From Pseudomonadota bacterium (GTDB lineage: Bacteria; Pseudomonadota; Gammaproteobacteria; Burkholderiales; Rhodocyclaceae): 64,000 nucleotides of DNA. Below are positions 6,879-22,659 of the stretch, piece after piece. The translations under genes were made by a program, and so were the position numbers. The stretch is from NCBI GenBank assembly GCA_021849505.1, contig JAJZSW010000004.1, forward strand, positions 1 to 64,000, in the 5' to 3' direction. The notes beneath the pieces were generated by a model. That model saw nothing but the letters and a program-made list of their open reading frames with translations. It had not been told where the DNA came from and did not search any database. Positions within the stretch are counted from its first letter, which is position 1. The number at the start of each line of letters is the position of its first letter.

Positions 6879-8201
6879 TCAGGCTTCCTCTCCGGCTTGC
6901 GCGCGAATTTCGTGCTTCTTCATCTTTTCCCAGAGGTTTTTTCGGCTGATGCCCAGTTGCGCGGCGGTTTCCGCGATGCGTCCCTGGTTGGCGGCAAGCG
7001 CCTCGACGATGCGCCGGCGCTCGCTGGCGGCGACGTGATCGGCGAGCGTCGGGGCGGGCATCGCCTGCGCAGCGGCACAGTCGCCGCACAGCGTCGCAGC
7101 GGTCAGCACCGGCGCGGGCGAGAGGATGCAGCCGCGTTCGAGGCAATGGCGCAGCTCGCGCACGTTGCCGGGCCAGTCGGCGGCCAGCATCGCGTCCTCG
7201 GCACTGGCGTCCAGGCTGCGTTTCGCCCCATCCCCCGAAAACTCGGCGAGGAAGCGGTCGGACAGCCAGAGGATGTCCTCGCGGCGCTCCCGCAAGGGCG
7301 GAATGTCGATCTGCACGACATGGATGCGGTAATACAGATCTTCGCGAAAGCGGCCCTCCTCCACCATCTTCTTCAGGTCGCGATGCGTGGCGCAGACGAG
7401 GCGGATATTGACCGGAATCGGCTTTTCCCCGCCGACGCGCACGATGGCGCGTTCCTGGATCGCGCGCAGCAGCTTGACTTGCATCGGCAGCGACATGTCG
7501 CCGATTTCGTCGAGGAACAGCGTGCCACCATCCGCCTGCTCGAAGCAGCCCTTGTGCTCCTTCACCGCGCCGGTGAAGGCGCCGCGTGCATGACCGAAGA
7601 GTTCGGCCTCCATCAGGGATTCGCTCACCGCCCCGCAGTTCACGGCCACGAAAGGCTGCTTGCCGGACGGATCGGCCTGCGCATGCAGGGCACGGGCGAC
7701 CACCTCCTTGCCGACGCCCGACTCGCCGGTAATCAGTACCATGCGTGCATTCGCGGCCAGGCGGGGCAGCATCGCCTCGATCTGGCGCATCCTGCTGGAG
7801 ATGCCCAATTGCGGATTGTCATCTGTACCAGTACGTTCGCGTGTACTCAGGCTGCGCACCTTGTCGAGCAGTTTCGGCACGTCGAGCGGCTTGGTCAGGT
7901 AGTCCTCTGCGCCCAGCTTCAGCAGGCGCACCGCCTGGTCGATCGCGCCATGGCCGGTGATGAACAGGAAGGGCGGCAAGGGCTGGCCGGATTGCCGCAA
8001 TTCGACGAACAGCTCCTCACCGGAGATATCCGGCAGGCGGATGTCGCTGATGGCCAGCGCATAGTGCTTGTGCAGCAGGCCCGGCACCGCAAGGCGGCCG
8101 CGCTGGAACCAGTCGCAGGCATAGCCTTCCATGTCCAGCCGCTCGACGAGCGCCTCGCCCATGATCGGGTCGTCCTCGATCAGGCAGATCTGCGGTTTCA
8201 T
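6879..8201 (-). CDS. Sigma-54-dependent response regulator (NtrC family)
   Basis: The 440 residues form three domains. The receiver (1-120) has acidic residues EDD at 9-11, the phospho-acceptor D53 in AISDIRLPD and the conserved KP near 100. The AAA+ sigma-54 activation domain (about 140-375) carries the Walker motif GESGVGKE and the sigma-54-contacting loop GAFTGA. A Fis-type helix-turn-helix lies at about 395-435 ([19 protein letters not shown]). The start overlaps the end of the kinase gene by four bases, so they form one two-component system. The predicted targets are the sigma-54 promoters at 10730 and 17881, each with paired palindromes upstream. ArrR/ArxR-like regulators are organised the same way; that comparison is from memory. 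Confidence 0.9.
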
Positions 8202-9703
8202 GCTGCGTTCCCCTGTTTCAGTGCCGTCTCGCCAAGACTGACTTTCGCTGCGGCGGCATCATCAGGCGGCAACGGCAGGCTGACAACGAAACGAATCTCG
8301 CCATCGCGGCACTCGACCGCAATGCTGCCGTTCAGCTGCTTGACGGTTTGATAGGTGACCCACAGTCCAAGCCCATGCCCGCCTTCGCGGCCGGACACGA
8401 AAGGCTCGAACAGGTGGGCAAGAATTTCCTGCGGCGGCGGCTCGCCTTCATTGGCGACCACCAGACTGAACTCGTCGCTTGTTCTGCTTGCCATCACGCG
8501 GATGCGCCCCTCCTGCGGTGTCGCCGCGATGGCGTTCAGCAGCAGGTTGATGAGCACCTGCCGGACGAAGCTCGCCGGCAAGGGCAGGCTTTCCGGCAAG
8601 TCGATTTCGAATTCGAGGTGTATGAGTTTCTTGGCGACCTGGGGTTCGATCAGCGTGCGCACATCCTCGAAATCCTGCCGGCCAAGGTCGCGCGCCTGCA
8701 CGCGCGCCTGCACGAGCAACGCCCCGACCGTCTCGGTGATCTGCTGCAAGCCGCGTTCGAGCAGGGCCACGGTGCGCGCCGTGGCGGCATCCATCGTCCC
8801 GCGCTGCTTCAGGGTATCGATGGCCATCAGCATCCCGCCGAGCGGGTTGTTGACCTCGTGCGCGATACCGGCGGCCAGCCGGCCCACGGCGGCCAGCCGC
8901 TCGGACTGCATGACCTCCTTTTCGAGCGCGGTTTTTTCGCGAATTTCGGCGGCGGCCCGGCGATAGGCCGTGAAAAGTTCCCCGAGTTCATCATGGTAGG
9001 CATACAACTCTGGACCCAGTTCCTCGGGCGCACCCGTGACGATCTCGCTCATGCCGTGTGCCAGCTGCACCAGCGGTTCGGTCATGCGCCGACCCCAGTA
9101 CCAGTTGAGCGGCAGCAGGATTGCCAGCACCAGGGCGCACGTGCCGGCGGCACCCAGGGCAAAACCGAAGAAGCGCGGCAGGAAGACATCCTTGCTGTGC
9201 GTGATCACCAGGGTACCGAGATGCTCGCCTTCTTCGGCCAGCGGTATCGAGACATGCAGCCGGTCGGATCCCGGGAACTCATGTGCTCCGGTGGCCTCCG
9301 GGTTCTTGATGCGCAGAGCTTCGGCCAACTCCGGGAAGTCCTCTCCCAGGCTGGCCAGATCGGCAAGGATGGGCATCGCGAGGGGCTGCGATGAAACGAG
9401 CACCCGCAGATTCCTGTCGACGACGAAGATCGCCGCCGGGTCCATGGCCTGCCTGCTGCCTTCGTCATGAAAAGGCGCGCGAATCAGTTCATAAGCGCGC
9501 CAGATATCGTCGTGCAGCAGCGTCGTAAACAGGGTTTTGGCGAGGGTAAACCCAAGACTTTCGGAACTGATGACGAGATCGTGCTTGAGATCGTCGAAGG
9601 CCCGCAGCATGAGCGCGCCGGAGACCGCCAGCGTTGCGGCGACGATCAGGCTGCTGCCCCACAGCGGAATCTTGTGACGCAAGCTGAGGTCGAAGAAACG
9701 CAT
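8198..9703 (-). CDS. Membrane sensor histidine kinase of the oxyanion-reductase cluster
   Basis: It has 501 residues: a first membrane helix (about 12-32), a periplasmic region (about 35-175), a second helix (VLAILLPLNWYWG) and a HAMP-like segment. The phospho-acceptor box is LAAGIAHEVNNPLGG near residue 280, and the ATPase domain has the N-box LLLNAIAATPQEG and a G-box GGHGLGLW. The VNNPLGG H-box is typical of NtrB-like kinases that pair with sigma-54 activators. It starts eight bases after the PhnD-like gene and overlaps the regulator gene. The likely arrangement is binding protein sensing a ligand, kinase, then regulator; the ligand is unknown. Confidence 0.9.
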   Translation of the reverse strand: MRFFDLSLRHKIPLWGSSLIVAATLAVSGALMLRAFDDLKHDLVISSESLGFTLAKTLFTTLLHDDIWRAYELIRAPFHDEGSRQAMDPAAIFVVDRNLRVLVSSQPLAMPILADLASLGEDFPELAEALRIKNPEATGAHEFPGSDRLHVSIPLAEEGEHLGTLVITHSKDVFLPRFFGFALGAAGTCALVLAILLPLNWYWGRRMTEPLVQLAHGMSEIVTGAPEELGPELYAYHDELGELFTAYRRAAAEIREKTALEKEVMQSERLAAVGRLAAGIAHEVNNPLGGMLMAIDTLKQRGTMDAATARTVALLERGLQQITETVGALLVQARVQARDLGRQDFEDVRTLIEPQVAKKLIHLEFEIDLPESLPLPASFVRQVLINLLLNAIAATPQEGRIRVMASRTSDEFSLVVANEGEPPPQEILAHLFEPFVSGREGGHGLGLWVTYQTVKQLNGSIAVECRDGEIRFVVSLPLPPDDAAAAKVSLGETALKQGNAA

Positions 9704-9711
9704 CGGGCCGG

Positions 9712-10602
9712 TCAGTATTCGCCGAAGGCGCGCATCATGTCGACCACGCCGGCGTATAGCCGCAGCTCGCCGACAGTGAAACCGTCGAGGTTGAGCTGCT
9801 CAAGAATGCGGCGGCCAGCGACGTCATTGGACATGTCGAGCAGCACGCGCTGCATCGTCGCAAAGTCCTCCGCCGACACGGAACGATGGGCAGCGAAAGG
9901 CGGAAAGCCATATTCCGGCGAAGCGCCGATGATGCGCGTGCGCGCGGTGAGTTCGGGTTTGATGCGCGTGAGCGTGTCCCACACGTAACTGTCCATCGAG
10001 GCGCCCTCGGCCATGCCGCTGGCCACGGCCTCGACCGCCTTGCGGTGGGAAAACGTGAAGAAGGTTTTGCGAAAGAAGGTTTGGGGGTTCTCCCCAAGCT
10101 GCCGTACCCAATAACGCGGCACGAGATAGCCGGTGTTCGAATACGGGTCGGAATAGGCGAAGGCGGCGCCTTTGAGATCGGCCATGCCCTGCGCTTTGGC
10201 ATTGTCCGCATGCACCAGCAGATAGGCCCGGTAATAGGGGCGACCCTTGTTGACCGGTACCACCAGCAACCGCACCAGATCCTTCAGATACAAAAACGGG
10301 TAATCGCACAGCCAGGCGAATTCGAGGCGGGACTGGTGCAATAAATCCATCGTTTCGCGGTAACTGTTGCGCGGGTGAAATTCAATGGTGACGCCGAGTT
10401 TCGCTTCCAGATAGCGGCGCCATTCCGCCATCAATGCATGCCGGTCATGCACGAAGGCGGGGGTCAGGCCGATCCGGATGATGCGTTGCGCGCCGACCGT
10501 GCTGGCGAGCGCACCCGCCGACCCCAGCGCGATAGCCGCCGCCCCCGCTTGCAGCAGACGCCGCCGCTGCCGATTACCGTTTGGTAACTCGATGGATCCC
10601 AT
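9712..10602 (-). CDS. PhnD-like periplasmic oxyanion-binding protein, likely sensory
   Basis: The 296-residue solute-binding protein belongs to the phosphate/phosphonate PhnD type. A twin-arginine-like, basic signal region (RQRRRLLQAGAAAIALGSAG) precedes the mature part starting around IIRIGLTPAF. No transporter permease or ATPase is nearby and the kinase gene follows by eight bases, so it more probably presents a ligand to the sensor kinase, as ArrX/ArxX/AioX-type proteins do in arsenic systems (family knowledge). ATG at 10602 is chosen because GGGGGG sits about nine bases upstream; a GTG three codons earlier would abut that site. A regulatory palindrome (10573-10588) overlaps the first codons. 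Confidence 0.82.
   Translation of the reverse strand: MGSIELPNGNRQRRRLLQAGAAAIALGSAGALASTVGAQRIIRIGLTPAFVHDRHALMAEWRRYLEAKLGVTIEFHPRNSYRETMDLLHQSRLEFAWLCDYPFLYLKDLVRLLVVPVNKGRPYYRAYLLVHADNAKAQGMADLKGAAFAYSDPYSNTGYLVPRYWVRQLGENPQTFFRKTFFTFSHRKAVEAVASGMAEGASMDSYVWDTLTRIKPELTARTRIIGASPEYGFPPFAAHRSVSAEDFATMQRVLLDMSNDVAGRRILEQLNLDGFTVGELRLYAGVVDMMRAFGEY
10573..10588. promoter_or_regulatory. Palindromic activator site 1 (ATTAC-N6-GTAAC)
   Basis: The sequence ATTACCGTTTGGTAAC is an imperfect palindrome of the form GTTAC-N6-GTAAC, located within the first codons of the PhnD-like gene. Its centre is 44 bp from that of site 2, about four helical turns. The same paired arrangement recurs at 17692-17749. 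Candidate upstream activating sequence for the NtrC-type regulator; no experimental support. Confidence 0.6.
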
Positions 10603-10616
10603 TCCAAGCACCCCCC

Positions 10617-10632
10617 GTTACTGATTGGTAAC
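10617..10632. promoter_or_regulatory. Palindromic activator site 2 (GTTAC-N6-GTAAC)
   Basis: The sequence GTTACTGATTGGTAAC has perfect five-base arms. It ends 97 bp before the -24 element of the sigma-54 promoter, a normal enhancer distance, and lies between the divergent regulator and reductase operons, so it could control both. Confidence 0.65.
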
Positions 10633-10649
10633 ACTGATTATAGGAAGGG

Positions 10650-10667
10650 TCTTCGGCTTACCGAAGA
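10650..10667. repeat. Inverted repeat in the divergent promoter region
   Basis: TCTTCGG and CCGAAGA form a perfect seven-base stem around a CTTA loop. There is no long T-tract on either side, so it may be an operator or a hairpin in the minus-strand leader rather than a terminator. Confidence 0.45.
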
Positions 10668-10729
10668 ACATTTTCACTATCGCTTGAAATTTAAGGGCTT
10701 GGCATCCCACTCACGCTAGCCGGGATACC

Positions 10730-10745
10730 TGGCACGCTCCCTGCA
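10730..10745 (+). promoter_or_regulatory. Sigma-54 promoter of the oxyanion-reductase operon
   Basis: TGGCACGCTCCCTGCA matches the -24/-12 consensus TGGCACG-N4-TTGCW at all but one of the fixed positions, with exact spacing. The start of transcription would be near 10757, which rules out any start codon upstream of that and supports the GTG at 10833 for the cytochrome gene. The adjacent regulator has the sigma-54-contacting GAFTGA loop. Confidence 0.85.
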
Positions 10746-10832
10746 CTCATGCATGGCAATCGAAGCAGCCACACCCAAGGCTTTATGGGAAGCGTGGTTC
10801 AGGAAATCGCTCAACTCTCGGGGGAATCAAGC

Positions 10833-11834
10833 GTGTTCAGATCCTGGCGAAAAACCACGGCGGCGGTTGCCGCATTCGTTGCGTGCGTCTGGAGTTTCCA
10901 GGCACACGCCGGAGATGCCGTTGCGGCGGACCCCGAAGTCGTCGAGAAAAACCGCAAGGCCAACGAGGCCTGCTTTGCCTGCCACAGCGAATTCGGGTTC
11001 AAGAATCCGCCGCGTACCGACATGGATATGAAGAAGCTCGCGGAAACCCTGTACGACCCCAAGGTGTTCGCCGGTTCCAACCATGGCACGATGGACTGCC
11101 GTCAGTGTCATGGCCAGGGCTACAACGACTATCCGCACTCTGAAACCGGCAAGAGCGAAACCAGTCCCTGCTCGGAATGCCATGCCACCAAAGTCGCCCG
11201 CCTGGAACCCCAGTATGACGCCTCGGTGCATGCGCGACTGGAAAGCGTCAAGGCGAAATTCACCTGCGCGACCTGCCACGATCCGCACATTGACCTCGGT
11301 GCAACCCTGCTCAAGGATCCGCTCAAGATCGCCGTGCAGGACAACAAGGCCTGTCTCGAATGCCACGACTCGGACGAGGTCTTCGCGAAATACGCCGCGG
11401 ACGACGATAAAACGCCGGGCATCAAGAAGAAGCGGCCCAATATCGACACCATCCACGAGTGGCTGCCGAACACCAAGCGGCACTGGCAGACGGTGCGCTG
11501 CGTCGAATGCCACACTCCCGAGGTGAAAGCCAACCGTCCGCTTTCGCATGAAATCCTCGACAAGGAAAAAGCCGAGAAGAACTGCCTGAGCTGCCATTCC
11601 GCCAATAGTTCCCTGAAGACCCGGCTCTACCGCCACCTGGTGAAAGACGAGCAGGACAGGCTGGGTTTTACCAACAGCATCATCCTCTCCAGCTCCTACG
11701 TGATCGGCGCCACCCGCCATCCGCTGCTCGACAAGATCGTCATCGGCCTTGTCGCACTGACCCTCGGCGGCGTGTTGTTGCACGGCGCCATCCGCATCGT
11801 CTTCGCCATCCGTCGCAAGGGGAAAAAGCAATGA
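10833..11834 (+). CDS. Heptaheme c-type cytochrome with C-terminal membrane anchor
   Basis: The protein has 333 residues. A GTG start with GGGGGA seven bases upstream gives a clean signal peptide (TAAVAAFVACVWSFQAHA). Seven CXXCH haem sites follow in order: CFACH, CRQCH, CSECH, CATCH, CLECH, CVECH, CLSCH. A single membrane helix near the C-terminus (KIVIGLVALTLGGVLL) and a basic tail would fix it in the inner membrane facing the periplasm. NapC/NrfH/CymA quinol dehydrogenases instead have an N-terminal anchor and four or five haems, so this is a different architecture. As first gene of the operon, overlapping the b-type cytochrome gene by four bases, it probably carries electrons between the membrane and the periplasmic enzyme. 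Confidence 0.88.
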   Translation: MFRSWRKTTAAVAAFVACVWSFQAHAGDAVAADPEVVEKNRKANEACFACHSEFGFKNPPRTDMDMKKLAETLYDPKVFAGSNHGTMDCRQCHGQGYNDYPHSETGKSETSPCSECHATKVARLEPQYDASVHARLESVKAKFTCATCHDPHIDLGATLLKDPLKIAVQDNKACLECHDSDEVFAKYAADDDKTPGIKKKRPNIDTIHEWLPNTKRHWQTVRCVECHTPEVKANRPLSHEILDKEKAEKNCLSCHSANSSLKTRLYRHLVKDEQDRLGFTNSIILSSSYVIGATRHPLLDKIVIGLVALTLGGVLLHGAIRIVFAIRRKGKKQ

Positions 11835-12448
11835 GCGATCGCATCTATCTTCTGCCTCTCTGGATCCGCCTCTGGCACTGGACCAACGCGCTGCTGATCA
11901 TCACATTGGCCGTCACCGGCATCAGCCTTCACTTCGCCGATCCCAAACTGCCGCTCGTCGAATTCGCGCTCGCCGCACGCATCCACGACATCGCCGGGCT
12001 CGCCCTGGTGGCGCTGTATGTCCTGTTCGTCATCGCCAATATCGTCACCGGCAACTGGTGGCAATACGTGCCCAAGCCGCCCGGCGTGCTGGAGCGCTGC
12101 GTCAAGCAAGGTCGGTGGTACATGGTTGGCATCTTCAAGGGCGAACCGCACCCGTATCGCGTCTCCGAAGAGGCCAACTTCAATGCGATGCAGGCCATCG
12201 CCTACTGGGTGATCATGTACGTTGTCATGCCCGTCATGCTGATCACGGGACTGTTGTTCCTCTATCCCGAATTCGCGCCCGACCGCTTTTTCGGCTTCGA
12301 CGGCCTGCTGCCGGTCGCGATCCTTCACTACCTCACCGGGGCGGTCATCATCATGTTCATGATCGCGCACATCTATCTCGGCACCACCGGCAAAACAGCC
12401 ACAAGCATGTTCAAGACCATGTTCACCGGCTGGTACGAGCAACATTGA
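11831..12448 (+). CDS. b-type cytochrome membrane subunit (FdnI/PhsC-like)
   Basis: A 205-residue protein with four predicted membrane helices. Histidines suited to bind two b-haems lie in RLWHW (residue 17), ARIHDIAG, ILHYLTG and IAHIYLGTT. Proteins of this family (formate dehydrogenase gamma, thiosulfate reductase cytochrome b) exchange electrons between the quinone pool and periplasmic Fe-S subunits. It overlaps the heptaheme cytochrome gene by four bases and lies 40 bases before the next gene. Together with the beta subunit it would form the quinol-linked anchor of the complex. Confidence 0.87.
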   Translation: MSDRIYLLPLWIRLWHWTNALLIITLAVTGISLHFADPKLPLVEFALAARIHDIAGLALVALYVLFVIANIVTGNWWQYVPKPPGVLERCVKQGRWYMVGIFKGEPHPYRVSEEANFNAMQAIAYWVIMYVVMPVMLITGLLFLYPEFAPDRFFGFDGLLPVAILHYLTGAVIIMFMIAHIYLGTTGKTATSMFKTMFTGWYEQH

Positions 12449-12488
12449 CCACAGTTTTCACTCGCCAGTTTTCCATAGGAGAAACACC

Positions 12489-13556
12489 ATGAACTTCGTG
12501 ACAAATGCCATCGCCCTCGCCGTCATCGCCACCTTTGCCAGCAGCAGCGCTCTGGCCCAGGCCCAAGAAAAGCCCAAGGCGCAAAAACCGGTGCCGGTCC
12601 CCGCGCTCAAGGCGGATGCCGCCCCGAAGGTCGATGGCTCCGCTGATGATGCGGTCTGGAAATCCGCCGCGGTCGTCAAGCTCGAAGCCGTCAAGGGCGT
12701 GAACTTCAAGGACAACAAGGGCAACACCAACGGGACGGTGCAGCTCGCCTATACCGCCGACACCCTCTACATGCTGATTACCTATGACGATCCGACCTTC
12801 TCCGTCAAGCACAGTCCCTACGTCAAGAAGGCTGACGGCAAGTGGGAAATGGTCAAGGACCCGGGCGACAAGGGCAGCGACGACAACAAGTTCCACGGCG
12901 ACAAGGTGTCGGTGATGTGGAACATCAACGACAGCATCTTCGGCTTCACCGACAAGTTCTCCTGTACCTCGGTCTGCCATGGCGGCGAAAAAGGCAAGGC
13001 TTATGGGAACAAATACAGCGAGGAGGCCGAAGAGACTGCCGACCTGTGGATCATGCGCTATTCCCAGGGCGGCGCACTGGGCTATGGCGACGACAAGTAT
13101 GTGGACAACACGAAGTTCGACCCGGTCAAGTCCCCGGATGCCGGCCGCAAGGCCGATCCGAGCAGCGGCGGTGGCTATGAAAAGATCAAGCTGGTCAACG
13201 GCAAGCCGGAATTCATGGGCAAGGACGCCAAGCCCGCCAACAAGGGCGGTACGTACTGGGTCAAGGCGGAAGACAAGGTGGCCTTCGACGACAGCAAGTT
13301 CAAGGCAGGCGACGAAGTCGCTTCTGTGATCGTCGCACCGTTCAAGGGCGACCGCGGCGATGTTTCGGTCGGCGCCAAGTGGGATAAAGGCAAATGGACC
13401 GTCGAGTTCGCCCGCAAGCTGAAAACCGGCTCCAAGCATGACATCGACCTCAGCGACCTGGGCAAGACCTACGCCTTCGGCATCGGCTTCTTTGACAACG
13501 CCGAGATGCGCCATGCCTATGTGCAGGCACCGCTGCACCTGCAATTCCAGAAGTAA
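12489..13556 (+). CDS. Periplasmic ethylbenzene-dehydrogenase-type haem-binding protein
   Basis: It has 355 residues with a signal peptide ending near ALAQA. The mature part reads like the haem-binding domain of the gamma subunits of ethylbenzene dehydrogenase, selenate and chlorate reductases: an early KVDGSADDAVWKSA, a long central insert, and a C-terminal NAEMRHAYVQAPLHLQF. A cysteine motif of unusual spacing, CTSVCH (C159, C163, H164; CX3CH), suggests a covalently held c-haem. The gene lies between the b-type cytochrome and the catalytic subunit. Gamma proteins of this kind normally go with type II enzymes, whereas the catalytic subunit here belongs to the Arr/Psr/Phs group, an unexpected combination. 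Confidence 0.8.
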   Translation: MNFVTNAIALAVIATFASSSALAQAQEKPKAQKPVPVPALKADAAPKVDGSADDAVWKSAAVVKLEAVKGVNFKDNKGNTNGTVQLAYTADTLYMLITYDDPTFSVKHSPYVKKADGKWEMVKDPGDKGSDDNKFHGDKVSVMWNINDSIFGFTDKFSCTSVCHGGEKGKAYGNKYSEEAEETADLWIMRYSQGGALGYGDDKYVDNTKFDPVKSPDAGRKADPSSGGGYEKIKLVNGKPEFMGKDAKPANKGGTYWVKAEDKVAFDDSKFKAGDEVASVIVAPFKGDRGDVSVGAKWDKGKWTVEFARKLKTGSKHDIDLSDLGKTYAFGIGFFDNAEMRHAYVQAPLHLQFQK

Positions 13557-13580
13557 TCGACACACCGAAAAGGAGTCGTC

Positions 13581-16139
13581 ATGAAACTGACCAGACGTGA
13601 ATTCCTCATGGGGTCATCGGCAACTATCGGCCTGCTGATGGTCGAAGGCGTCCTTGCCGCCACCCCGCGCAATCCGAAATCCAGCGCCATCAAGATCCGC
13701 AAGGCCGGCCCTGCCGCACCCTCCAAGGGCGAATGGGTGCCTAGCACCTGTCAAGGCTGCACGGCCTGGTGCGCCGTGGAAATATTCGTGCAGGACAATC
13801 GCGCGGTGAAAGTGCGCGGCAATCAGCTCTCCAAGGCGAACAACGGCTATTGCTGTCCCCGCGGCCACCTGATTCCGCAGCAAACCTACGATCCGGACCG
13901 CATCAAGGTGCCGATGAAGCGCACCAACCCCGTGAAGGGACGCGGCGTCGACCCGCAGTTCGTGCCGATCAGCTGGGACGAGGCGCTTGATCTCGTCGCC
14001 GACAAGATGATCGAACTGCGCAAGAACGACGAGCCGCACAAGTTCGCCTACATCCGCGGCCGCTACTCCTCCACCGCGACGCAGATCCTCTACGGTGCGC
14101 TGCCGGCCATCTACGGCACCCCGAATTACTTCTCCCACAGCGCGATCTGCGCCGAGGCGGAGAAGATGGGGCCCGGCCTGACCCAGGGCTTCTTCGGCTA
14201 CCGCGACTACGACCTGGCGCGAACCAGGTGCCTGGTGACCTGGGGCTGCGATCCGGTTTCCTCGAACCGCATGGTGCCGGCAACCATCAAGCACCTCGGC
14301 GACATCATCGCGCGCGGCAGCCTGATCGCCGTCGACCCGCGCATGTCCACCTCGGCGGCGAAGGCCCATGAGTGGCTGCCGATCAAGCCGGGTACCGATG
14401 GCGCGCTAGCCAGCGCCATGGCGCATGTGCTGCTGGTCGAAGGGCTGTGGAACAGGGAATTCGTCGGCGACTTCAAGGACGGCAAGAACCTCTTTGTCGC
14501 CGGCGCGGCGGTGGATGAAGCCGCCTTCGCCGAAAAGGAAACCCATGGCCTGGTGAAGTGGTGGAACATCGAACTCAAGGACAAGACCCCAGCCTGGGCC
14601 GAGCAGGAGACCCTGATTCCGGCGGCCCAGACGCTGCGCGTCGCGCGCATGATGGCCAAGCATGCGCCCCAGACCGCCGTCTGGATGGGGCCGGGCGCGG
14701 CCATGTATCCGCGCGGCACCTATGCGGCGATGGCGGTGCATGCGCTCAACGGCCTGCTCGGCTCTATCGATGTCGAGGGCGGCGTGTTGCAGACCACCAG
14801 CCCGCCGCTCGGCGCCTACCCCAAGCGCGACGCCTACCTGGACGAGGTCGCCAAGAAGCACGGCAAGGGCAAGAAGGTCGACGGCCGCGGCGCGAAGGAC
14901 ATGCCGGCGATGATGAATGCCAGGCCGGGCAGCGGCGTCGTCACCAACAACATCGCCAACGGCATGCTCAAGGATCCGGGCGCGGTCAAGGTGCTGCTGA
15001 GTTCCTGGTCGAACTTCAACTTTTCCTGCACCGACCCGGCCCGCTGGGACAAGGCGCTGGCGCAACTGCCCTTCTTCGCGCACATGGTCACCAACGCCTC
15101 GGAGATGACACAGTTCGCCGACGTGGTACTGCCCTCGACCATGAATGCCAGCGAAGGGCTCTCGGTGATTTCCAACAATGGTCTGACGCATGGCTTCGCC
15201 TCGATCCAGCAGCCGGCCGGCAAGCGCCTGTGGGACGTCAAGCAGGAAGAGACCGAGGTCTGCTGGCTGCTCGCGGCCAAGCTCAAGGCCAGGGGCTTCC
15301 CGAACCTCTACGACTACTTCGCCAACGAGTTCAAGGATCCGGAAACCGGCAAGACGCCGACCAACGAGATGGAGTTCTCCGAGGTGCTGGCCAAGATCTC
15401 CAGCGCACCGCTGTGGATGCCCAAGGAAGCGCTCAAGGGCGACAAGCTCGAAGGCTGGGCGGATTACCGCAAGAAGGGCATTTACAACACCCAGCAATAC
15501 AGCTTCAAGAAAGGCTGGGGCGGCAAGTTCAACACCGCGACCAAGAAGTTCGAGTTCTACAGCGAGACGCTCAAGAAGGGCTTGACCGAACATGCCGCGA
15601 AGTACCAGACCACGATCGACGAGGTGCTGAAGGTTTCGGGCTATCTCGCCCAGGGCGAACTCGCCTTCGTGCCGCACTACGAAGCACCGAAGCGGCATGG
15701 CAGCTACCAGGACTACCCCTTCGAGTTCGTCGATTACAAGTCGCGTCTCAATCGCGAGGGGCGCTCGGCGAACTTGCCCTGGTACCAGGAATTCAAGAAG
15801 ATGGACACCGGCGATGTATCCTGGGGCGACGTGCTCAAGATGAACCCGGCCGACGGTGCGAAGCTGGGACTCAAGACCGGCGACACGGTGAAAATCACTT
15901 CGCCGGCGGGATCGATCGTTACCCAGCTCAGGCTGTGGGAGGGCATCCGTCCGGGCACCGTCACCAAGTGCTATGGCCAGGGCCACTGGGCCTACGGCCG
16001 TGTCGCGGCCGGGGACTATGCGAAGGCCCTGCCGCGTGGCGGCAACAACAACGAGATCCTCGTCGATGACTACGACCGACTGAGCGGCTCCACCGCGCGC
16101 AATGGCGGCTTCACCGGCGTCCGGATCGAAAAGGCCTGA
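13581..16139 (+). CDS. Tat-exported molybdopterin oxidoreductase catalytic subunit, ArrA-like
   Basis: It has 852 residues. The Tat signal is TRREFLMGSS at 4-13. C57, C60, C64 and C91 or C92 (CQGC-X3-C ... NGYCCPRG) bind a [4Fe-4S] cluster, and bis-MGD binding regions follow (GCDPVSSNR; GPGAAMYPRG). C190 in SHSAICAEAEKMG is the probable Mo ligand. R161-Y162 in RGRY, H186, K195 and Y207 line up by spacing with the arsenate-site residues I recall for Shewanella ArrA (R165, Y166, H189, C193, K198, Y210); this needs an alignment. The length equals ArrA. RGRY favours the ArrA side over ArxA. Related selenate, polysulfide, thiosulfate or antimonate reductases remain possible. AAGGAG precedes the ATG. 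Confidence 0.85.
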   Translation: MKLTRREFLMGSSATIGLLMVEGVLAATPRNPKSSAIKIRKAGPAAPSKGEWVPSTCQGCTAWCAVEIFVQDNRAVKVRGNQLSKANNGYCCPRGHLIPQQTYDPDRIKVPMKRTNPVKGRGVDPQFVPISWDEALDLVADKMIELRKNDEPHKFAYIRGRYSSTATQILYGALPAIYGTPNYFSHSAICAEAEKMGPGLTQGFFGYRDYDLARTRCLVTWGCDPVSSNRMVPATIKHLGDIIARGSLIAVDPRMSTSAAKAHEWLPIKPGTDGALASAMAHVLLVEGLWNREFVGDFKDGKNLFVAGAAVDEAAFAEKETHGLVKWWNIELKDKTPAWAEQETLIPAAQTLRVARMMAKHAPQTAVWMGPGAAMYPRGTYAAMAVHALNGLLGSIDVEGGVLQTTSPPLGAYPKRDAYLDEVAKKHGKGKKVDGRGAKDMPAMMNARPGSGVVTNNIANGMLKDPGAVKVLLSSWSNFNFSCTDPARWDKALAQLPFFAHMVTNASEMTQFADVVLPSTMNASEGLSVISNNGLTHGFASIQQPAGKRLWDVKQEETEVCWLLAAKLKARGFPNLYDYFANEFKDPETGKTPTNEMEFSEVLAKISSAPLWMPKEALKGDKLEGWADYRKKGIYNTQQYSFKKGWGGKFNTATKKFEFYSETLKKGLTEHAAKYQTTIDEVLKVSGYLAQGELAFVPHYEAPKRHGSYQDYPFEFVDYKSRLNREGRSANLPWYQEFKKMDTGDVSWGDVLKMNPADGAKLGLKTGDTVKITSPAGSIVTQLRLWEGIRPGTVTKCYGQGHWAYGRVAAGDYAKALPRGGNNNEILVDDYDRLSGSTARNGGFTGVRIEKA

Positions 16140-16170
16140 GCCCGCAACGCACGAATCAAGGAGATAGATA

Positions 16171-16941
16171 ATGCCCAAATATGGAATGGTCATCGACCTG
16201 CAAAAGTGCGTCGGCTGCGGAGCCTGCGCCCTCGCCTGCAAGGCGGAAAACAACACCCGGGATCGCGGCGACAACAACGCACACAACTGGGCCGACTTCA
16301 TCAGCACGACCGAAGGCAAGTTCCCTAACACAACCCAGATCGTGCTGCCGGTGCTGTGCAATCATTGCGACGTACCGGCCTGCATCCCGAAGTGTCCGGT
16401 CGTGCCGTCTGCGATATTCAAGACGCCGGACGGCTTCGTGCTGATCGACCACGAAACCTGCACTGGCTGCAAGGCCTGCCAGCAGTCCTGCCCGTACAGT
16501 ACCGAAGCGCTGGACGACCGCAGCCTCGCTGGCGAAACCTACAGCGTGATCAGCTTCAACAACAAACGCAAACCAGCACAACCGCGCTGGGAAGACAATA
16601 CCGCGATGATTCCCGGCTGCACCTCTTCCGGCGCCGAGGTGGCGAAAGCGGCGGGCGCCCCGCTGCCGGCCATGAATGGCTATGAATCCACTGAAACCCA
16701 GCCGGTACGCGCGCGCGGCGTGTTTGAAAAGTGTACCTTCTGCTATCACCGCGTCACCCACGGCCTGCTGCCGGCCTGCGTGGATGTGTGCCCCTCCAAG
16801 GCGCGCATTTTCGGCGATTTGAAGAACCCCAAGTCGGAAATCGCCCAGATCGTCAAGAAGCAGAAATACTTCCGCCTGCAGGAGGACAAAGGCACCAAAC
16901 CGAACGTGTACTACATCAACAAGTACAGCGCGCGGGCCTGA
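16171..16941 (+). CDS. Four-cluster ferredoxin subunit (ArrB/PhsB type)
   Basis: A 256-residue beta subunit without its own signal peptide, so it would be co-exported with the Tat-targeted alpha subunit. Four cysteine groups are visible: CVGCGACALAC near residue 12, CNHCDVPACIPKC near 65, CTGCKACQQSC near 98, and CTFCYHRVTHG ... CVDVC near 190, enough for four [4Fe-4S] clusters. An insert between the third and fourth groups is slightly longer than in many relatives. It follows the alpha gene by 31 bases behind AAGGAG. A strong terminator hairpin comes right after it. Confidence 0.92.
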   Translation: MPKYGMVIDLQKCVGCGACALACKAENNTRDRGDNNAHNWADFISTTEGKFPNTTQIVLPVLCNHCDVPACIPKCPVVPSAIFKTPDGFVLIDHETCTGCKACQQSCPYSTEALDDRSLAGETYSVISFNNKRKPAQPRWEDNTAMIPGCTSSGAEVAKAAGAPLPAMNGYESTETQPVRARGVFEKCTFCYHRVTHGLLPACVDVCPSKARIFGDLKNPKSEIAQIVKKQKYFRLQEDKGTKPNVYYINKYSARA

Positions 16942-16962
16942 ACGCACGCGCATTACAATCAC

Positions 16963-16990
16963 GAGGCAGGGGCGACCCTGCCTCTTTTTT
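16963..16990 (+). terminator. Rho-independent terminator between beta subunit and TorD genes
   Basis: The stem GAGGCAGGG/CCCTGCCTC has nine pairs around a GCGA loop and is followed by six T residues. It lies between the ferredoxin-subunit stop and the chaperone start, so the chaperone should be made at a lower level by read-through, or from a weak promoter of its own. Confidence 0.88.
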
Positions 16991-17000
16991 GGGACATGCC

Positions 17001-17627
17001 ATGACTGAAACGGAAATGCGTGAAAAGCTTGCGCGCGAAGACCTGTGCCGCCTGCTTGCCGCCTGCTACTACGAACCGGAACCCGCCTTCGCGGCAGAAG
17101 GCTTGTTCGACAATCTGCTCGCCGCCGCGCGGCAAGTCGATGAAGCCTTCGTCCCGCACGCGCAGGCAATGGGCGAGGCATTCCGCGCCACGGCAGCGCA
17201 AGCGCTGCTGCTCGATTACACCCGGCTGTTCCTCGGCCCGATGGATATCCTCGCCAAGCCTTACGGATCGGTCTGGCTCGACCAGGAAAAGACCCTGATG
17301 AACGACAGCACGATGGCCTTGCTCGATCTCCACAAGGAAGCAGGGTTCGAGATGGACGAGGAATTTCGGGAACTGCCCGACCATGTCGCCGCGGAACTCG
17401 AATTTCTCTACCTGCTGATCTTCCGCGAGAACGAAGCGCTACGCGCCGGAGATACGACCAAGCACGAACAGGCCCGCGTTCTCAAGCGGCGCTTTCTGTC
17501 GCAGCACCTCGGCCGCTGGATCGGTCCGTTCGCGGCCGCCATGCACGGCAATGCGCAAACCGACTTCTACCGCCAGTTGGCCGACCTGACAGAGAAGGTC
17601 GTCAAGCAGGAAGCCGCGCGGAGATAA
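17001..17627 (+). CDS. TorD-family molybdoenzyme assembly chaperone
   Basis: A cytoplasmic, mostly helical protein of 208 residues. TorD/DmsD-type chaperones bind the Tat signal of their molybdoenzyme and hold it until cofactor loading is done. The family core LLDYTRLFLGPMDILAKPYGSVWLD and a later DHVAAELEFLYLL are clear. The ATG at 17001 is ten bases after a terminator that follows the ferredoxin-subunit gene. Its partner should be the catalytic subunit at 13581-16139, which has a Tat signal. Confidence 0.9.
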   Translation: MTETEMREKLAREDLCRLLAACYYEPEPAFAAEGLFDNLLAAARQVDEAFVPHAQAMGEAFRATAAQALLLDYTRLFLGPMDILAKPYGSVWLDQEKTLMNDSTMALLDLHKEAGFEMDEEFRELPDHVAAELEFLYLLIFRENEALRAGDTTKHEQARVLKRRFLSQHLGRWIGPFAAAMHGNAQTDFYRQLADLTEKVVKQEAARR

Positions 17628-17646
17628 GCGATTTGCCGCCCGCTGC

Positions 17647-17670
17647 AAAGTCGGCGCTGGCAGGACGCCA
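17647..17670 (+). repeat. Dispersed 24-bp repeat, copy 1
   Basis: It begins AAAGTCGGCGCTGG and ends AGGACGCCA, differing from the consensus end GGGACGGCA at two positions. It lies 20 bases after the TorD gene stop. Confidence 0.8.
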
Positions 17671-17691
17671 CCCGACTCAGCAGCATAGCCG

Positions 17692-17707
17692 GTCACCATT
17701 CGGTAAC
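17692..17707. promoter_or_regulatory. Palindromic activator site 3 (GTCAC-N6-GTAAC)
   Basis: GTCACCATTCGGTAAC differs by one arm base from the GTTAC-N6-GTAAC form seen at 10617-10632. Its centre is 42 bp from site 4, again close to four helical turns. Candidate binding site for the NtrC-type regulator. Confidence 0.6.
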
Positions 17708-17733
17708 TTTCTCTCTGGCTGATAAATGGAGAT

Positions 17734-17749
17734 GTTACCGTTATGCAAC
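17734..17749. promoter_or_regulatory. Palindromic activator site 4 (GTTAC-N6-GCAAC)
   Basis: GTTACCGTTATGCAAC has one mismatch in the right arm. It lies 131 bp upstream of the -24 element at 17881. The DNA between this site and the promoter is markedly AT-rich (17750-17830, with a tandem CAGCATAT), which may ease looping; I found no convincing IHF site. Confidence 0.55.
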
Positions 17750-17880
17750 TCAGTTATTCAGCATATCAGCATATGTACATAAACTTTTCAAACATGTGGT
17801 TAGCTTCTTTTCTATATAAATAAGGCACTTATTGCGCAGCCTCCTTCATTGAATTCGAAGACACTCCCTCGACAGCCACC

Positions 17881-17896
17881 TGGCACGCCACGTGCA
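17881..17896 (+). promoter_or_regulatory. Sigma-54 promoter of the small cysteine-rich protein
   Basis: TGGCACGCCACGTGCA matches TGGCACG-N4-TTGCW except for one base, with correct spacing. It precedes the ATG at 17941 by 44 bases, and the paired palindromes 3 and 4 lie upstream. Apart from these sites and repeat copy 1, the gap 17628-17940 contains no gene that I can support. Confidence 0.83.
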
Positions 17897-17940
17897 TGGG
17901 TCATTGATACAACAAGCACCCATAACCGAGGAGGTCAACA

Positions 17941-18098
17941 TGAATCAAACATCAACCGGAAGTTGCCAGCAGCCGGAAGAATCCGGAGTGGTCAAAACAT
18001 GCAAGATCTTTTGCGGCTCATGCATCATGTGTGCACTGGCCGTGCCGTTCGTGCTGATCGTACTTTTCGTGGTGGCCAGATTTTTTGGCTATATCTGA
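17941..18098 (+). CDS. 52-residue cysteine-rich single-pass membrane protein
   Basis: A polar N-terminal part of about 20 residues is followed by CKIFCGSCIMC (C21, C25, C28, C31; C-X3-C-X2-C-X2-C) and one long membrane helix (about residues 32-50). A further cysteine is at position 9. The start is set by GAGGAGG eight bases upstream of the ATG. The sigma-54 promoter and paired palindromes shared with the reductase operon imply co-regulation. I do not recognise the family. The four clustered cysteines beside the membrane could bind a metal, a cluster or a trivalent metalloid, or be redox-active; all of this is inference. Being short, it is easily missed by gene callers. Confidence 0.75.
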
Positions 18099-18324: not shown

Positions 18325-18597
18325 TTAGAACTTGTAGAAATCCCTGTTCAGATAGGCGTACAGGTCGTCGATGTCCTGCTCGGTCAGCGCCGGGTTGTAG
18401 TAGTCGCCCCAGCGCAGCAGTTCCTTGCGCAGCGCATTCCCGGACTTCACCTTGCGGTCGGGACGCGCGTAGAGCTCGGTGCCGTGGCAGTCGAGGCAGA
18501 TCTTGTGCAATTCGGCGCCGCGCGCGGCATCGCCCTTGACGGTGCCGCCGTCGCAGGCGCCCAGCGTCAGCGCGGCCAGGATAAAGACGGCCTTCAC
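18325..18597 (-). CDS. Small c-type cytochrome lipoprotein
   Basis: It has 90 residues from a GTG start that overlaps the stop codon of the upstream gene by four bases (GTGA). The N-terminus VKAVFILAALTLGAC ends in a lipobox, so the mature protein should be lipid-anchored. One haem site, CLDCH, lies in AELHKICLDCHGTELY, and the C-terminal ALTEQDIDDLYAYLN is typical of class I cytochromes. The distal methionine ligand is not obvious. The gene lies tail-to-tail with the cysteine-rich small gene, with 226 intervening bases in which I see no gene. Whether it serves the reductase is unknown. Confidence 0.8.
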   Translation of the reverse strand: MKAVFILAALTLGACDGGTVKGDAARGAELHKICLDCHGTELYARPDRKVKSGNALRKELLRWGDYYNPALTEQDIDDLYAYLNRDFYKF

Positions 18598-18887
18598 TTG
18601 TCGCGCCCTCCGCGCCATTGCCGGCCCGGCGGTTCGCAACTCACGCCCGGCTGGCCCGCCGCGCGCGCCTGCATCTCGCTACGGTGTGCGGCGCGAATCG
18701 CCTGCCGCTCTTCGAGCGTGAGCGCCGCGCGCATCCTCGCACGATAGGCTTCGCGCTCCTCAGGGGTCATGCGGTCGGCGCAGTAGATCAGTTCGCGCGG
18801 CTCGGCCGGCGGGCCGGCAGGCTGTGCGACCGCCTGTGCCGACAAAGCCAGGAACGTAACCAGCAGCAACACGAATCCGGGTTTCAT
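18594..18887 (-). CDS. Secreted protein of unknown function
   Basis: A 97-residue protein with a signal peptide (GFVLLLVTFLALSAQAVAQ). The mature part is rich in Pro, Glu and Arg, with a helical repeat-like stretch MTPEEREAYRARMRAALTLEERQAIRAAH and two cysteines (LIYCAD and VSCEPP). The stretch recalls periplasmic helical proteins of the Spy/CpxP kind, but I cannot assign it. ATG at 18887 is preceded by GAGGG. It is translationally coupled to the downstream cytochrome lipoprotein. Confidence 0.7.
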   Translation of the reverse strand: MKPGFVLLLVTFLALSAQAVAQPAGPPAEPRELIYCADRMTPEEREAYRARMRAALTLEERQAIRAAHRSEMQARAAGQPGVSCEPPGRQWRGGRDK

Positions 18888-18978
18888 GGCCAATCCCTCG
18901 CAATACGTTCATTCCAGAATAGCAGCCCATTTCCCATGCACAATGTCGGCTTCGCTCAACTCGCCATTGGGACCGCCC

Positions 18979-20297: not shown

Positions 20298-21353
20298 TTA
20301 CAGGATCGCGTTGAACAGGTAGCCGACGATGACGATGCCGCTGGCGACGATGGCGACGTAGATGGCAATCAGGCGCAGCTTAAGCGCCTTGCGCAGGATG
20401 ATCATCTCGGGCAGCGACAGGGCGACGACGCTCATCATGAAGGCGAGCAGCGTGCCCATCGCGGCACCCTTGCCGTAGAGCGCTTCGACAATGGGAATCA
20501 CGCCCGCCGTGTTGGTGTACATCGGCACGCCAAGTCCGACTGCCGCCGGCACGGCCCACCAGGCTTCCTTGCCCATCAGCGTGGCCATCAGCTCCTGCGG
20601 CACGTAGCCATGGATGCCGGCGCCGATGGCGATGCCGACCATCACGTAGGGCCAGACGCGGCCGACGATTTCCTTGACGCTGCTCCATGCGCTGGCGAAG
20701 CGCTCCGGCCAGGTAGGCCGATCCATGTTCGCGCTCACCGCGCCGCCACTCTGGATGGCGACCACCCAGTCTTCGAGGTAGCGTTCCAGGTTGAGCCGGG
20801 CCAGAATCATGCCGGCGACCACCGCCAGCGCGATGCCGAAGCCGAAGTACAAGGCGGCGACTTTCCAGCCGAACATCGCGGCGAGCATGACGACCGCGAT
20901 CTGGTCGATCATCGGCGCGGCGATGAGAAAGGTGAGCGTGATGCCGAGCGGCACCCCGGCCGACAGGAAGCCGATGAACAGGGGCACCGCCGAACAGGAA
21001 CAGAAGGGCGTGACGGCGCCGAGCAGCGCGGCGAGCAGGTAGTTGACCGACGCCGCCCGGCCGGCCAGCATGGCGCGCGTGCGTTCCGGCGTGAAGAAGG
21101 TATGCACGATGCCCATCACGAACACGATGCCGGCGAGCAGCAGCAGCACCTTCGGCGTGTCGTAGACGAAGAAATGCACCGCCTCGGCGAAACGCGTGCC
21201 GCGCTCCAGCCCGAGCGCCGCGACGACAGTGTCGGCGAAGGGAATAAGCTGGCTGTAGACCGCGACCCAGACAACGGCGGCGATGGCAATGCCGATCAGC
21301 CATTTCGCCAAAATCGGCGCTGGCGGGACGGCACCCGCATTGATTCCGCTCAT
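20298..21353 (-). CDS. UPF0718/ArsP-like permease
   Basis: A 351-residue polytopic protein with the family motif TPFCSCSAVPLFIGF near residue 115 and GVPMYTNTAGVIPI near 265. Relatives include ArsP, an exporter of trivalent organoarsenicals, and permeases found with a small CXXC thioredoxin-like protein, as here. It overlaps that gene by four bases (ATGA) and is last in an arsR-arsC-ACR3 operon. The first codons contain repeat copy 3, giving an N-terminus of MSGINAGAVPPAPILAKW; residues AVPPAPIL are encoded by the repeat. Export of an arsenical is likely from context but not certain. Confidence 0.82.
   Translation of the reverse strand: MSGINAGAVPPAPILAKWLIGIAIAAVVWVAVYSQLIPFADTVVAALGLERGTRFAEAVHFFVYDTPKVLLLLAGIVFVMGIVHTFFTPERTRAMLAGRAASVNYLLAALLGAVTPFCSCSAVPLFIGFLSAGVPLGITLTFLIAAPMIDQIAVVMLAAMFGWKVAALYFGFGIALAVVAGMILARLNLERYLEDWVVAIQSGGAVSANMDRPTWPERFASAWSSVKEIVGRVWPYVMVGIAIGAGIHGYVPQELMATLMGKEAWWAVPAAVGLGVPMYTNTAGVIPIVEALYGKGAAMGTLLAFMMSVVALSLPEMIILRKALKLRLIAIYVAIVASGIVIVGYLFNAIL
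21310..21333 (-). repeat. Dispersed 24-bp repeat, copy 3, in frame in the permease gene
   Basis: On the plus strand it begins AAAATCGGCGCTGG and ends GGGACGGCA. It falls eight codons after the permease start and is translated as AVPPAPIL. Confidence 0.85.
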
Positions 21354-21586
21354 GACGCCAGCCAGCCGTCGATCTTGTCCTTGCCTGGGATGCCGCCGGC
21401 GTGCACCACCTTGCCGTCGATGACGACGCCCGGCGTGCTCATCACGCCGTAGCGCATGATGTCCTGGATCTCTTCGACCTTTTCGATCTGCACGGCGACG
21501 CCCCTGGCGGCGGCGGCCTCCTCGATGAGCTTGAAGGTGGTCTTGCAGCTGGCACAACCGGTGCCGAGGACTTTGATGTTCTTCAT
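21350..21586 (-). CDS. Thioredoxin-fold small redox protein (CASC)
   Basis: A 78-residue protein with the redox motif GTGCASCK near residue 10, followed by a thioredoxin-like fold with the cis-Pro region MSTPGVVIDGKVVHAG. Such proteins (also called redox-active disulfide protein 2) are often encoded beside UPF0718 permeases and ACR3 pumps. The start ATG has AAGGAGCAAGGTC-type ribosome binding upstream and overlaps the ACR3 stop by four bases. A role in reducing or handing over an arsenical is inferred. Confidence 0.88.
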   Translation of the reverse strand: MKNIKVLGTGCASCKTTFKLIEEAAAARGVAVQIEKVEEIQDIMRYGVMSTPGVVIDGKVVHAGGIPGKDKIDGWLAS

Positions 21587-22659
21587 GACCTTGCTCCTTG
21601 TTCGTACCAGGGTTTGGTGGCATTCACCACCTTGACGACCAGCAGCATCACCGGCACCTCGATCAGCACGCCGACCACGGTCGCCAGCGCCGCGCCCGAC
21701 TCGAAGCCGAACAGCGAGATCGCGGCGGCGACGGCCAGTTCGAAGAAGTTGCTGGCACCGATCAGCGCCGACGGGCAGGCGACGGAGTGCTTTTCGCCGA
21801 CCTGCCGGTTGAGCCAGTAGGCGAGACTGGAATTGAAGAACACCTGGATCAGGATCGGCACGGCCAGCAGCGCGATGATCAGCGGCTGCTCGATGATGGC
21901 CTTGCCCTGGAAGGCGAACAGCAGCACCAGCGTGGCGAGCAGGGCCGTGATCGACCAGGGGCCGATTTTCGCCATGACCGCATCGAAATGCGCCGGTCCC
22001 TTTTTCAGCAGCCTCTTGCGCCAGAGCTGGGCAAGTGCGAGCGGGATGACGATGTAGAGCACGACGGAAGTCACCAGCGTGTCCCACGGCACGACTATCG
22101 CCGAGATGCCGAGCAGCACGCCGACGATGGGCGCGAAGGCGAACACCATGATCGTGTCGTTGAGGGCCACCTGCGAGAGCGTAAATAGCGGATCGCCGTT
22201 GGTCAGGCGGCTCCAGACGAAGACCATCGCCGTGCACGGCGCGGCGGCTAGCAGGATCAGGCCGGCGATGTAACTGTCGATCTGGTCGGCCGGCAGATAC
22301 GGCGCGAACAGATGGCGGATGAAGATCCAGCCGAGCAGCGCCATCGAGAAAGGTTTGACCAGCCAGTTGACAACCAGCGTGACGCCGATGCCCTTCATAT
22401 GGGTTTTCACTTCGGCGAGGGCGCCGAAGTCGACCTTGATCAGCATCGGGATGATCATGATCCAGATCAGCAGGCCGACCGGCAGGTTGACCCGGGCAAT
22501 CTCCATGTGGCCGAGCGCCTGGAACGGCGCGGGGAACCACTGGCCGAGACCGATGCCGACGAGGATGCAGAGGAAGACCCAAAGCGTCAGCCAGCGCTCG
22601 AAGAAGGACATGGGCGCGCCGGCGGCGACTTTGGCGGTGACTTCGCACTGGGCCGACAT
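21583..22659 (-). CDS. ACR3-family arsenite efflux carrier
   Basis: A 358-residue membrane protein with ten predicted helices that extrudes As(III) using the proton gradient. The family's essential cysteine is present in LLAAAPCTAMVFVWS, and further signatures are SLAYWLNRQVGEKHSVACPSALIGASNFFELAVA. It starts one base after the arsC stop and overlaps the thioredoxin-like gene, so the genes are tightly coupled. Confidence 0.94.
   Translation of the reverse strand: MSAQCEVTAKVAAGAPMSFFERWLTLWVFLCILVGIGLGQWFPAPFQALGHMEIARVNLPVGLLIWIMIIPMLIKVDFGALAEVKTHMKGIGVTLVVNWLVKPFSMALLGWIFIRHLFAPYLPADQIDSYIAGLILLAAAPCTAMVFVWSRLTNGDPLFTLSQVALNDTIMVFAFAPIVGVLLGISAIVVPWDTLVTSVVLYIVIPLALAQLWRKRLLKKGPAHFDAVMAKIGPWSITALLATLVLLFAFQGKAIIEQPLIIALLAVPILIQVFFNSSLAYWLNRQVGEKHSVACPSALIGASNFFELAVAAAISLFGFESGAALATVVGVLIEVPVMLLVVKVVNATKPWYEQGARS

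Follow-up and report, generated by a model that had tools for sequence, protein, structure and literature searches.

Paired AioR-type operator boxes upstream of two sigma-54 promoters are candidate enhancers of an ArrA-like operon and a 52-residue membrane protein in a member of the Rhodocyclaceae

Introduction

Two sigma-54 promoters in a bacterium of the family Rhodocyclaceae are each preceded by a pair of similar palindromes, which raises the question of which regulator acts there and which genes it controls. The promoters lie in positions 1 to 64,000 of contig JAJZSW010000004.1 (assembly GCA_021849505.1), hereafter the window. An original prediction, made from the letters of this DNA, described the palindromes as GTTAC-N6-GTAAC repeats, named a nearby NtrC-type regulator as their activator and proposed an operator motif and a two-unit regulon not explained by gene annotation. 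We find that the four palindromes are very probably paired enhancer sites for the response regulator (R) of an arsenic system resembling AioXSR and ArxXSR, driving an ArrA-like operon and the gene of a 52-residue protein. The original prediction had not recognised the three-component XSR genes as being of the arsenic type, nor the respiratory operon beside them as ArrA-like.

The best-known relatives are the AioXSR-aioBA systems of Rhizobium NT-26, Agrobacterium and Sinorhizobium M14, which likewise comprise a periplasmic sensor (X), a histidine kinase (S) and an NtrC regulator (R). For 12 aioXSR-linked aioBA operons, a -24/-12 promoter preceded by two tandem GTT-N10-AAC palindromes was described in 2013 (PMC3834237). 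AioR, with the consensus GTT-N10-AAC, has been footprinted on GTTCGGATTTCCGAAC, and in Agrobacterium GW4 it has a second regulon member, the chemoreceptor gene mcp (PMC5335332). As far as the open-access literature shows, direct control of arx by ArxR has not been experimentally demonstrated (PMC6683785, PMC6549141).

Results

Operator boxes and promoters

The four boxes (Table 1) were found exactly where they had been predicted, with spacings of 44 bp (boxes 1 and 2) and 42 bp (boxes 3 and 4). All are within one mismatch of GTTAC-N6-GTAAC, but only box 2 is exact. By the strict form GTT-N10-AAC, boxes 2 and 4 are exact and boxes 1 (ATT...AAC) and 3 (GTC...AAC) have one mismatch each, that of box 3 agreeing with the published T/C variant of the AioR box. 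Both promoters are canonical, with GG (-24)-N10-GC (-12) spacing, and nowhere else in the window is TGGCACG-N5-TGCA matched exactly; RpoN is encoded in the genome. From box edge to -24 element we measured 97 bp (box 2 to promoter 1) and 131 bp (box 4 to promoter 2), in agreement with the predicted distances of about 100 and 130 bp.

Chance, or structural repetition without a regulatory role, is an extremely improbable explanation of the palindromes. Boxes 1 to 4 are the sole sites in the window at ≤ 1 mismatch, compared to an expected mean of 0.17 in first-order Markov draws of the window, and 300 such draws (19.2 Mb) contained zero box pairs spaced 20–70 bp apart. Pattern searches of the whole 2.75-Mb genome (assembly 94% complete, 161 contigs) gave 9 sites at ≤ 1 mismatch, four of which are boxes 1 to 4; the remaining five are all isolated, with no strong sigma-54 site adjoining any of them, and the paired motif is rare in this genome. 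The one point in favour of chance is that allowing two mismatches removes the enrichment in the window (6 observed vs 4.6 expected), which means that it is the pairing and the near-exact copies that carry the signal. The conservation described below, with a 76-fold enrichment upstream of X, also argues against chance.

Conservation across XSR loci

An alignment of X was scanned against 84,980 species genomes, which gave 80 XSR loci. Counting as a box any site with ≤ 1 mismatch and taking -1000 to +80 of the X start as the upstream zone, box density was 1.83 per kb upstream of X and 0.024 per kb elsewhere. A box was present in 67 of the 80 loci and a pair in 52, so the paired motif is conserved upstream of homologous operons; the control pattern CAATG-N6-CATTG formed zero pairs in these loci. 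The two outcomes that the original prediction had named as refuting it, a motif frequent across the genome away from sigma-54 promoters and a motif missing upstream of homologous operons, were both looked for, and neither was seen. Strong -24/-12 elements lay downstream of the boxes in 92.5% of box-bearing loci, compared to 9.8% of random stretches.

The spacings, mostly whole helical turns, fell into classes of 32–34 bp (9 spacings), 40–44 bp (34), 51–53 bp (18), 62 bp (1), 96 bp (2) and 104 bp (1). With one locus kept per 70% X-identity cluster, 25 of 41 loci had a pair, and the spacings had a phase concentration of 0.67 at 10.5 bp. The distance from box to -24 element was more weakly phased (0.48 at 10.5 bp over 65 loci, close relatives included) and we do not claim phasing for it. 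In tandem enhancers of the NtrC/glnA type, too, a sigma-54 promoter is preceded by two dimer sites that are in phase with the helix; they share this arrangement with the window and differ from it in sequence, signal and genes. Pairs in the NT-26 and M14 aio loci are 33 bp apart, and Aromatoleum tolulyticum (L111) has GTTAC boxes paired at 43 bp with a sigma-54 promoter, much as in the window.

The XSR genes

X, S and R are contiguous in the order seen in AioXSR, ArxXSR and ArrXSR three-component systems, as judged by Pfam and synteny. X has a Tat-like signal peptide containing RR, and its best PDB match was AioX (6esv, 2e-58), followed by ArrX (6x6b, 1e-37). The AioX pocket is formed by Tyr88, Cys106, Tyr131, Ser161, Ser163, His192 and Asp210 (PMC5908839); in the PDB-match alignment six of these seven residues are identical in X and Ser163 is replaced by Thr. 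X also keeps the AioX loop residue Phe57, which is reportedly missing in ArrX, and has Ala for Val56. Because the pocket residues match AioX and Phe57 is present, an arsenite-type ligand is suggested for X, with arsenite more likely than arsenate.

R comprises a receiver, a sigma-54 AAA+ domain with GAFTGA and a Fis-type helix-turn-helix, with RKNLWEK in its recognition helix. This helix was found in no other NtrC-type protein of the genome. R is the best candidate activator, and the proposed mechanism is well supported in silico.

Boxes 1 and 2 straddle the start of X, and box 1, read in the X frame, encodes Leu-Pro-Asn-Gly-Asn; the X-proximal box likewise lies inside the X coding sequence in the same frame at about 25 other listed loci, encoding LPxxN-type peptides directly before the twin-arginine motif. 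Could the boxes then be mainly an autoregulatory operator of the divergent XSR genes, acting by repression or as a roadblock at the X start, with another enhancer-binding protein driving the promoters? We consider this very unlikely, since the same kind of pair recurs at boxes 3 and 4, far from X, since in ArxA-type loci the pair lies 50–200 bp from X and yet keeps its distance to the sigma-54 promoter, and since no second NtrC-type protein of the genome has the RKNLWEK helix. Given the overlap of boxes 1 and 2 with the X start, R probably also influences transcription of its own XSR operon, in addition to the proposed enhancer role. It should be noted that operator and X signal peptide share bases, at box 1 in the window and at corresponding boxes among loci L049–L084.

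A natural control and the match between helix and box

Locus L040 has the same operon (catalytic subunit 84% identical) without X. A sigma-54-like site is present there and the boxes are absent; its NtrC regulator is 36% identical and has a different helix, GIPRQNLYVRM. Across the other loci, regulators with RK[N/T/S]LWEK pair with GTTAC...GTAAC, as found at ArrA-like, ArxA, other molybdoenzyme and betaproteobacterial AioBA loci, whereas those with RTTLWEK (NT-26, Agrobacterium, Rhodobacterales; alphaproteobacterial aio loci) pair with GTTCG...CGAAC. It is suggestive that box sequence tracks the recognition helix of R, and no more than suggestive because this is essentially one evolutionary contrast.

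The first target: an ArrA-like operon

Promoter 1 precedes six genes (Table 1). The listed reading frame of the first, a heptahaem cytochrome c, starts too near the -12 element, and its real start is therefore likely the GTG at 10833, behind GGGGGA at 10820. The catalytic subunit (A) is 49.5% identical to bona fide ArrA (L178) and 31–39% identical to catalytic subunits of the ArxA branch. It scores 1034 bits against the NCBIfam ArrA model NF041714, below the cut-off of 1600 (L178 scores 1742 in the same library), and the B subunit scores 232 against the ArrB cut-off of 450. In a FastTree phylogeny A falls in a 26-row clade with L178 (100% support), apart from ArxA. We place moderate confidence in this position beside ArrA and, as L178 is a long branch, call A ArrA-like only.

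The operon thus resembles ArrAB in the grouping of A with ArrA and in its ArrB-like and TorD partners, and differs from it in the sub-threshold A and B scores, in the added heptahaem cytochrome, PhsC-like cytochrome b and EB_dh protein, and in a sensor closer to AioX than to ArrX. AioXSR, by comparison, controls AioBA. The ArxXSR/arxB2ABCD clusters of Aromatoleum tolulyticum and Sulfuricella denitrificans share the GTTAC box and the divergence of XSR from a molybdenum operon, but have an ArxA-branch catalytic subunit and an NrfD-type ArxC where the window has cytochrome b, heptahaem cytochrome and EB_dh genes. A lies outside the ArxA clade, and the operon lacks the arxB2ABCD gene set, with no NrfD-type subunit among its genes. 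A type II dimethyl sulfoxide reductase (perchlorate, selenate or ethylbenzene), suggested by the EB_dh gene, was rejected as the catalytic subunit is ArrA-like.

Near the operon there is an ArsP_1/SaoE-like permease gene, homologues of which lie near XSR or ArrA-like loci in L041, L042, L069, L083 and L089; in L041 the DNA between, read by eye, apparently holds arsenite-permease- and arsenate-reductase-like genes. A large clade of further XSR-linked molybdoenzymes (L185, L100, L104, L112, L125 and others) shares about 25% identity with ArrA and resembles PhsA at scores under the cut-off; many of its members have boxes. An enzyme of this type adjoins arsB/arsA/arsD on plasmid pAZKH of Azoarcus KH32C.

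The second target: a 52-residue protein

Promoter 2 faces a single open reading frame (ORF) for a Cys-rich, single-span membrane protein of 52 residues. It has no Pfam hit and no PDB family; a reading as ATP synthase subunit c was discarded, the PDB matches being weak and not credible. Homologues were recognised in two genus-mates (44 and 39% identity, E ~1e-9), both lying on contigs that also carry XSR/molybdoenzyme clusters. No convincing terminator was found 3' of the ORF, the two matches falling over box 3 and inside the ORF. Two genes convergent to it encode a small c-type cytochrome and a secreted hypothetical protein.

The two-unit regulon of the original prediction is plausible, but the conservation seen at promoter 1 gives no support to its second unit, as the box pair was not found at either recognisable homologue. 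This absence, the one mismatch in each of boxes 3 and 4 and a transcript that would hold one 52-residue ORF would fit a reading in which R has its one genuine target at promoter 1, the second unit being a largely functionless copy of the control region, either decayed or of recent origin. We regard that as rather unlikely: the -24/-12 element of promoter 2 is near perfect, the 42-bp spacing and a strong ribosome site are present, and the protein itself has homologues in the two genus-mates. Other loci, too, have distal box pairs accompanied by a sigma-54-like site, before a small cytochrome c (L068, 7780/7833), a CBS-domain protein (L119, 1106/1138) and a long coiled-coil-like ORF (L098, 15072/15105), and these genes are likely further regulon members. 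Together with the control of mcp by AioR in Agrobacterium GW4, these distal pairs make a multi-unit regulon reasonable.

Table 1 Positions of the boxes, promoters and genes of the window that are considered here
Feature	Position	Strand	Description and basis
Operator box 1	10573-10588	strandless	ATTACCGTTTGGTAAC; 1 mismatch to GTTAC-N6-GTAAC; within 5' coding end of X
Operator box 2	10617-10632	strandless	GTTACTGATTGGTAAC; exact palindromic consensus; directly 5' of X start
Operator box 3	17692-17707	strandless	GTCACCATTCGGTAAC; 1 mismatch
Operator box 4	17734-17749	strandless	GTTACCGTTATGCAAC; 1 mismatch
Sigma-54 promoter 1	10730-10745	+	TGGCACGCTCCCTGCA; TGGCACG-N4-CTGCA
Sigma-54 promoter 2	17881-17896	+	TGGCACGCCACGTGCA; TGGCACG-N4-GTGCA
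R	6879-8201	-	NtrC-type response regulator, AioR/ArxR-like; Pfam, sequence, helix comparison
S	8198-9703	-	Membrane sensor histidine kinase, AioS/ArxS position; Pfam, synteny
X	9712-10611	-	Periplasmic binding protein, AioX/ArxX/ArrX subfamily; PDB matches, pocket residues
Cytochrome c	10749-11834	+	c-type, 7 CXXCH motifs (heptahaem); Pfam, haem count
Cytochrome b	11831-12448	+	PhsC / Ni-hydrogenase b-type; Pfam, profile match
EB_dh-domain protein	12489-13556	+	Periplasmic; ethylbenzene dehydrogenase gamma-type haem-binding domain; Pfam
A	13581-16139	+	ArrA-like molybdenum bis(pyranopterin guanine dinucleotide) (Mo-bisPGD) catalytic subunit; ~50% identity to bona fide ArrA
B	16171-16941	+	ArrB-like iron-sulfur subunit; profile match
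Chaperone	16731-17627	+	TorD family; Pfam; mechanical ORF start overlaps B gene
52-residue protein	17940-18098	+	MNQTSTGSCQQPEESGVVKTCKIFCGSCIMCALAVPFVLIVLFVVARFFGYI; Cys-rich single-span membrane protein; behind GGAGG ribosome site
Small cytochrome c	18325-18639	-	c-type (CLDCH)
Secreted protein	18594-18893	-	Hypothetical
Permease	20298-21623	-	ArsP_1/SaoE-like

A separate dispersed repeat, AAAGTCGGCGCTGG (extended approximately to GAAAGTCGGCGCTGGCGGGACGGCA), occurs in the window at 17647, 20168, 35449, 40701, 50449, 54028 and other positions. The 2.75-Mb genome holds 239 exact 14-mer copies of it and zero of the reversed pattern, and it is also present in related Rhodocyclaceae loci.

Discussion

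The sites, the promoters, the gene families and their comparative conservation can be read from the sequences themselves; for the phosphorelay, the binding of R, the looping and the arsenic ligand we draw on the known AioR system. By this analogy, X would bind an arsenic oxyanion in the periplasm and signal to S, which would phosphorylate R. A dimer of R would then occupy each box, the two dimers lying on the same face of the DNA, whole turns apart, and this pairing may help to build the AAA+ oligomer. By looping over the 97–131 bp, the oligomer would remodel the sigma-54 RNA polymerase at promoters 1 (10730) and 2 (17881), and the ArrA-like respiratory operon and the 52-residue protein would be switched on.

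Several points weigh against such an enhancer role. Three of the four boxes deviate from the exact motif, and 13 of the 80 XSR loci have no recognisable box. The spacing classes cluster phylogenetically, having changed only about 4 times over the X tree, so that few independent events lie behind the helical-phase statistic; the covariation of helix and box similarly comes down to alpha-type vs beta/gamma-type R. The homologues of the 52-residue ORF are without the pair, and the evidence for this organism is all in silico.

The motif had been thought unexplained by annotation. It is real, but it is the published AioR box (PMC3834237, PMC5335332) and not a new one; in the window it takes the form GTTAC...GTAAC with an RKN helix, compared to GTTCG...CGAAC with an RTT helix for alphaproteobacterial AioR. 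What appears to be new from these comparisons is that the box extends to the ArrA-like branch and to further enzymes linked to XSR, together with the classes of helical spacing, the match between helix and box and the candidate 52-residue target.

A broader possibility, which we advance tentatively, is that XSR systems form a wide family with one operator code, in which pairs lie whole turns apart and the helix sets the two base pairs on the inner side of GTT (RKN with GTTAC, RTT with GTTCG). Such a family might serve at least five molybdoenzyme classes, together with accessory genes such as that of the 52-residue protein. Among these classes would be an ArrA-like branch of betaproteobacteria, served by an arsenite-type sensor, whose enzymes may oxidise arsenite instead of respiring arsenate.

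For arsenic-responsive operons the findings offer a search rule, namely two GTTAC-N6-GTAAC boxes spaced 33, 42 or 52 bp apart together with a -24/-12 element, and they provide a named small-protein candidate in the 52-residue protein. They would tie the ArrA-like branch and several further molybdoenzymes to arsenic-type sensing, and they bear on whether regulators of the ArxR type act directly on their own operons.

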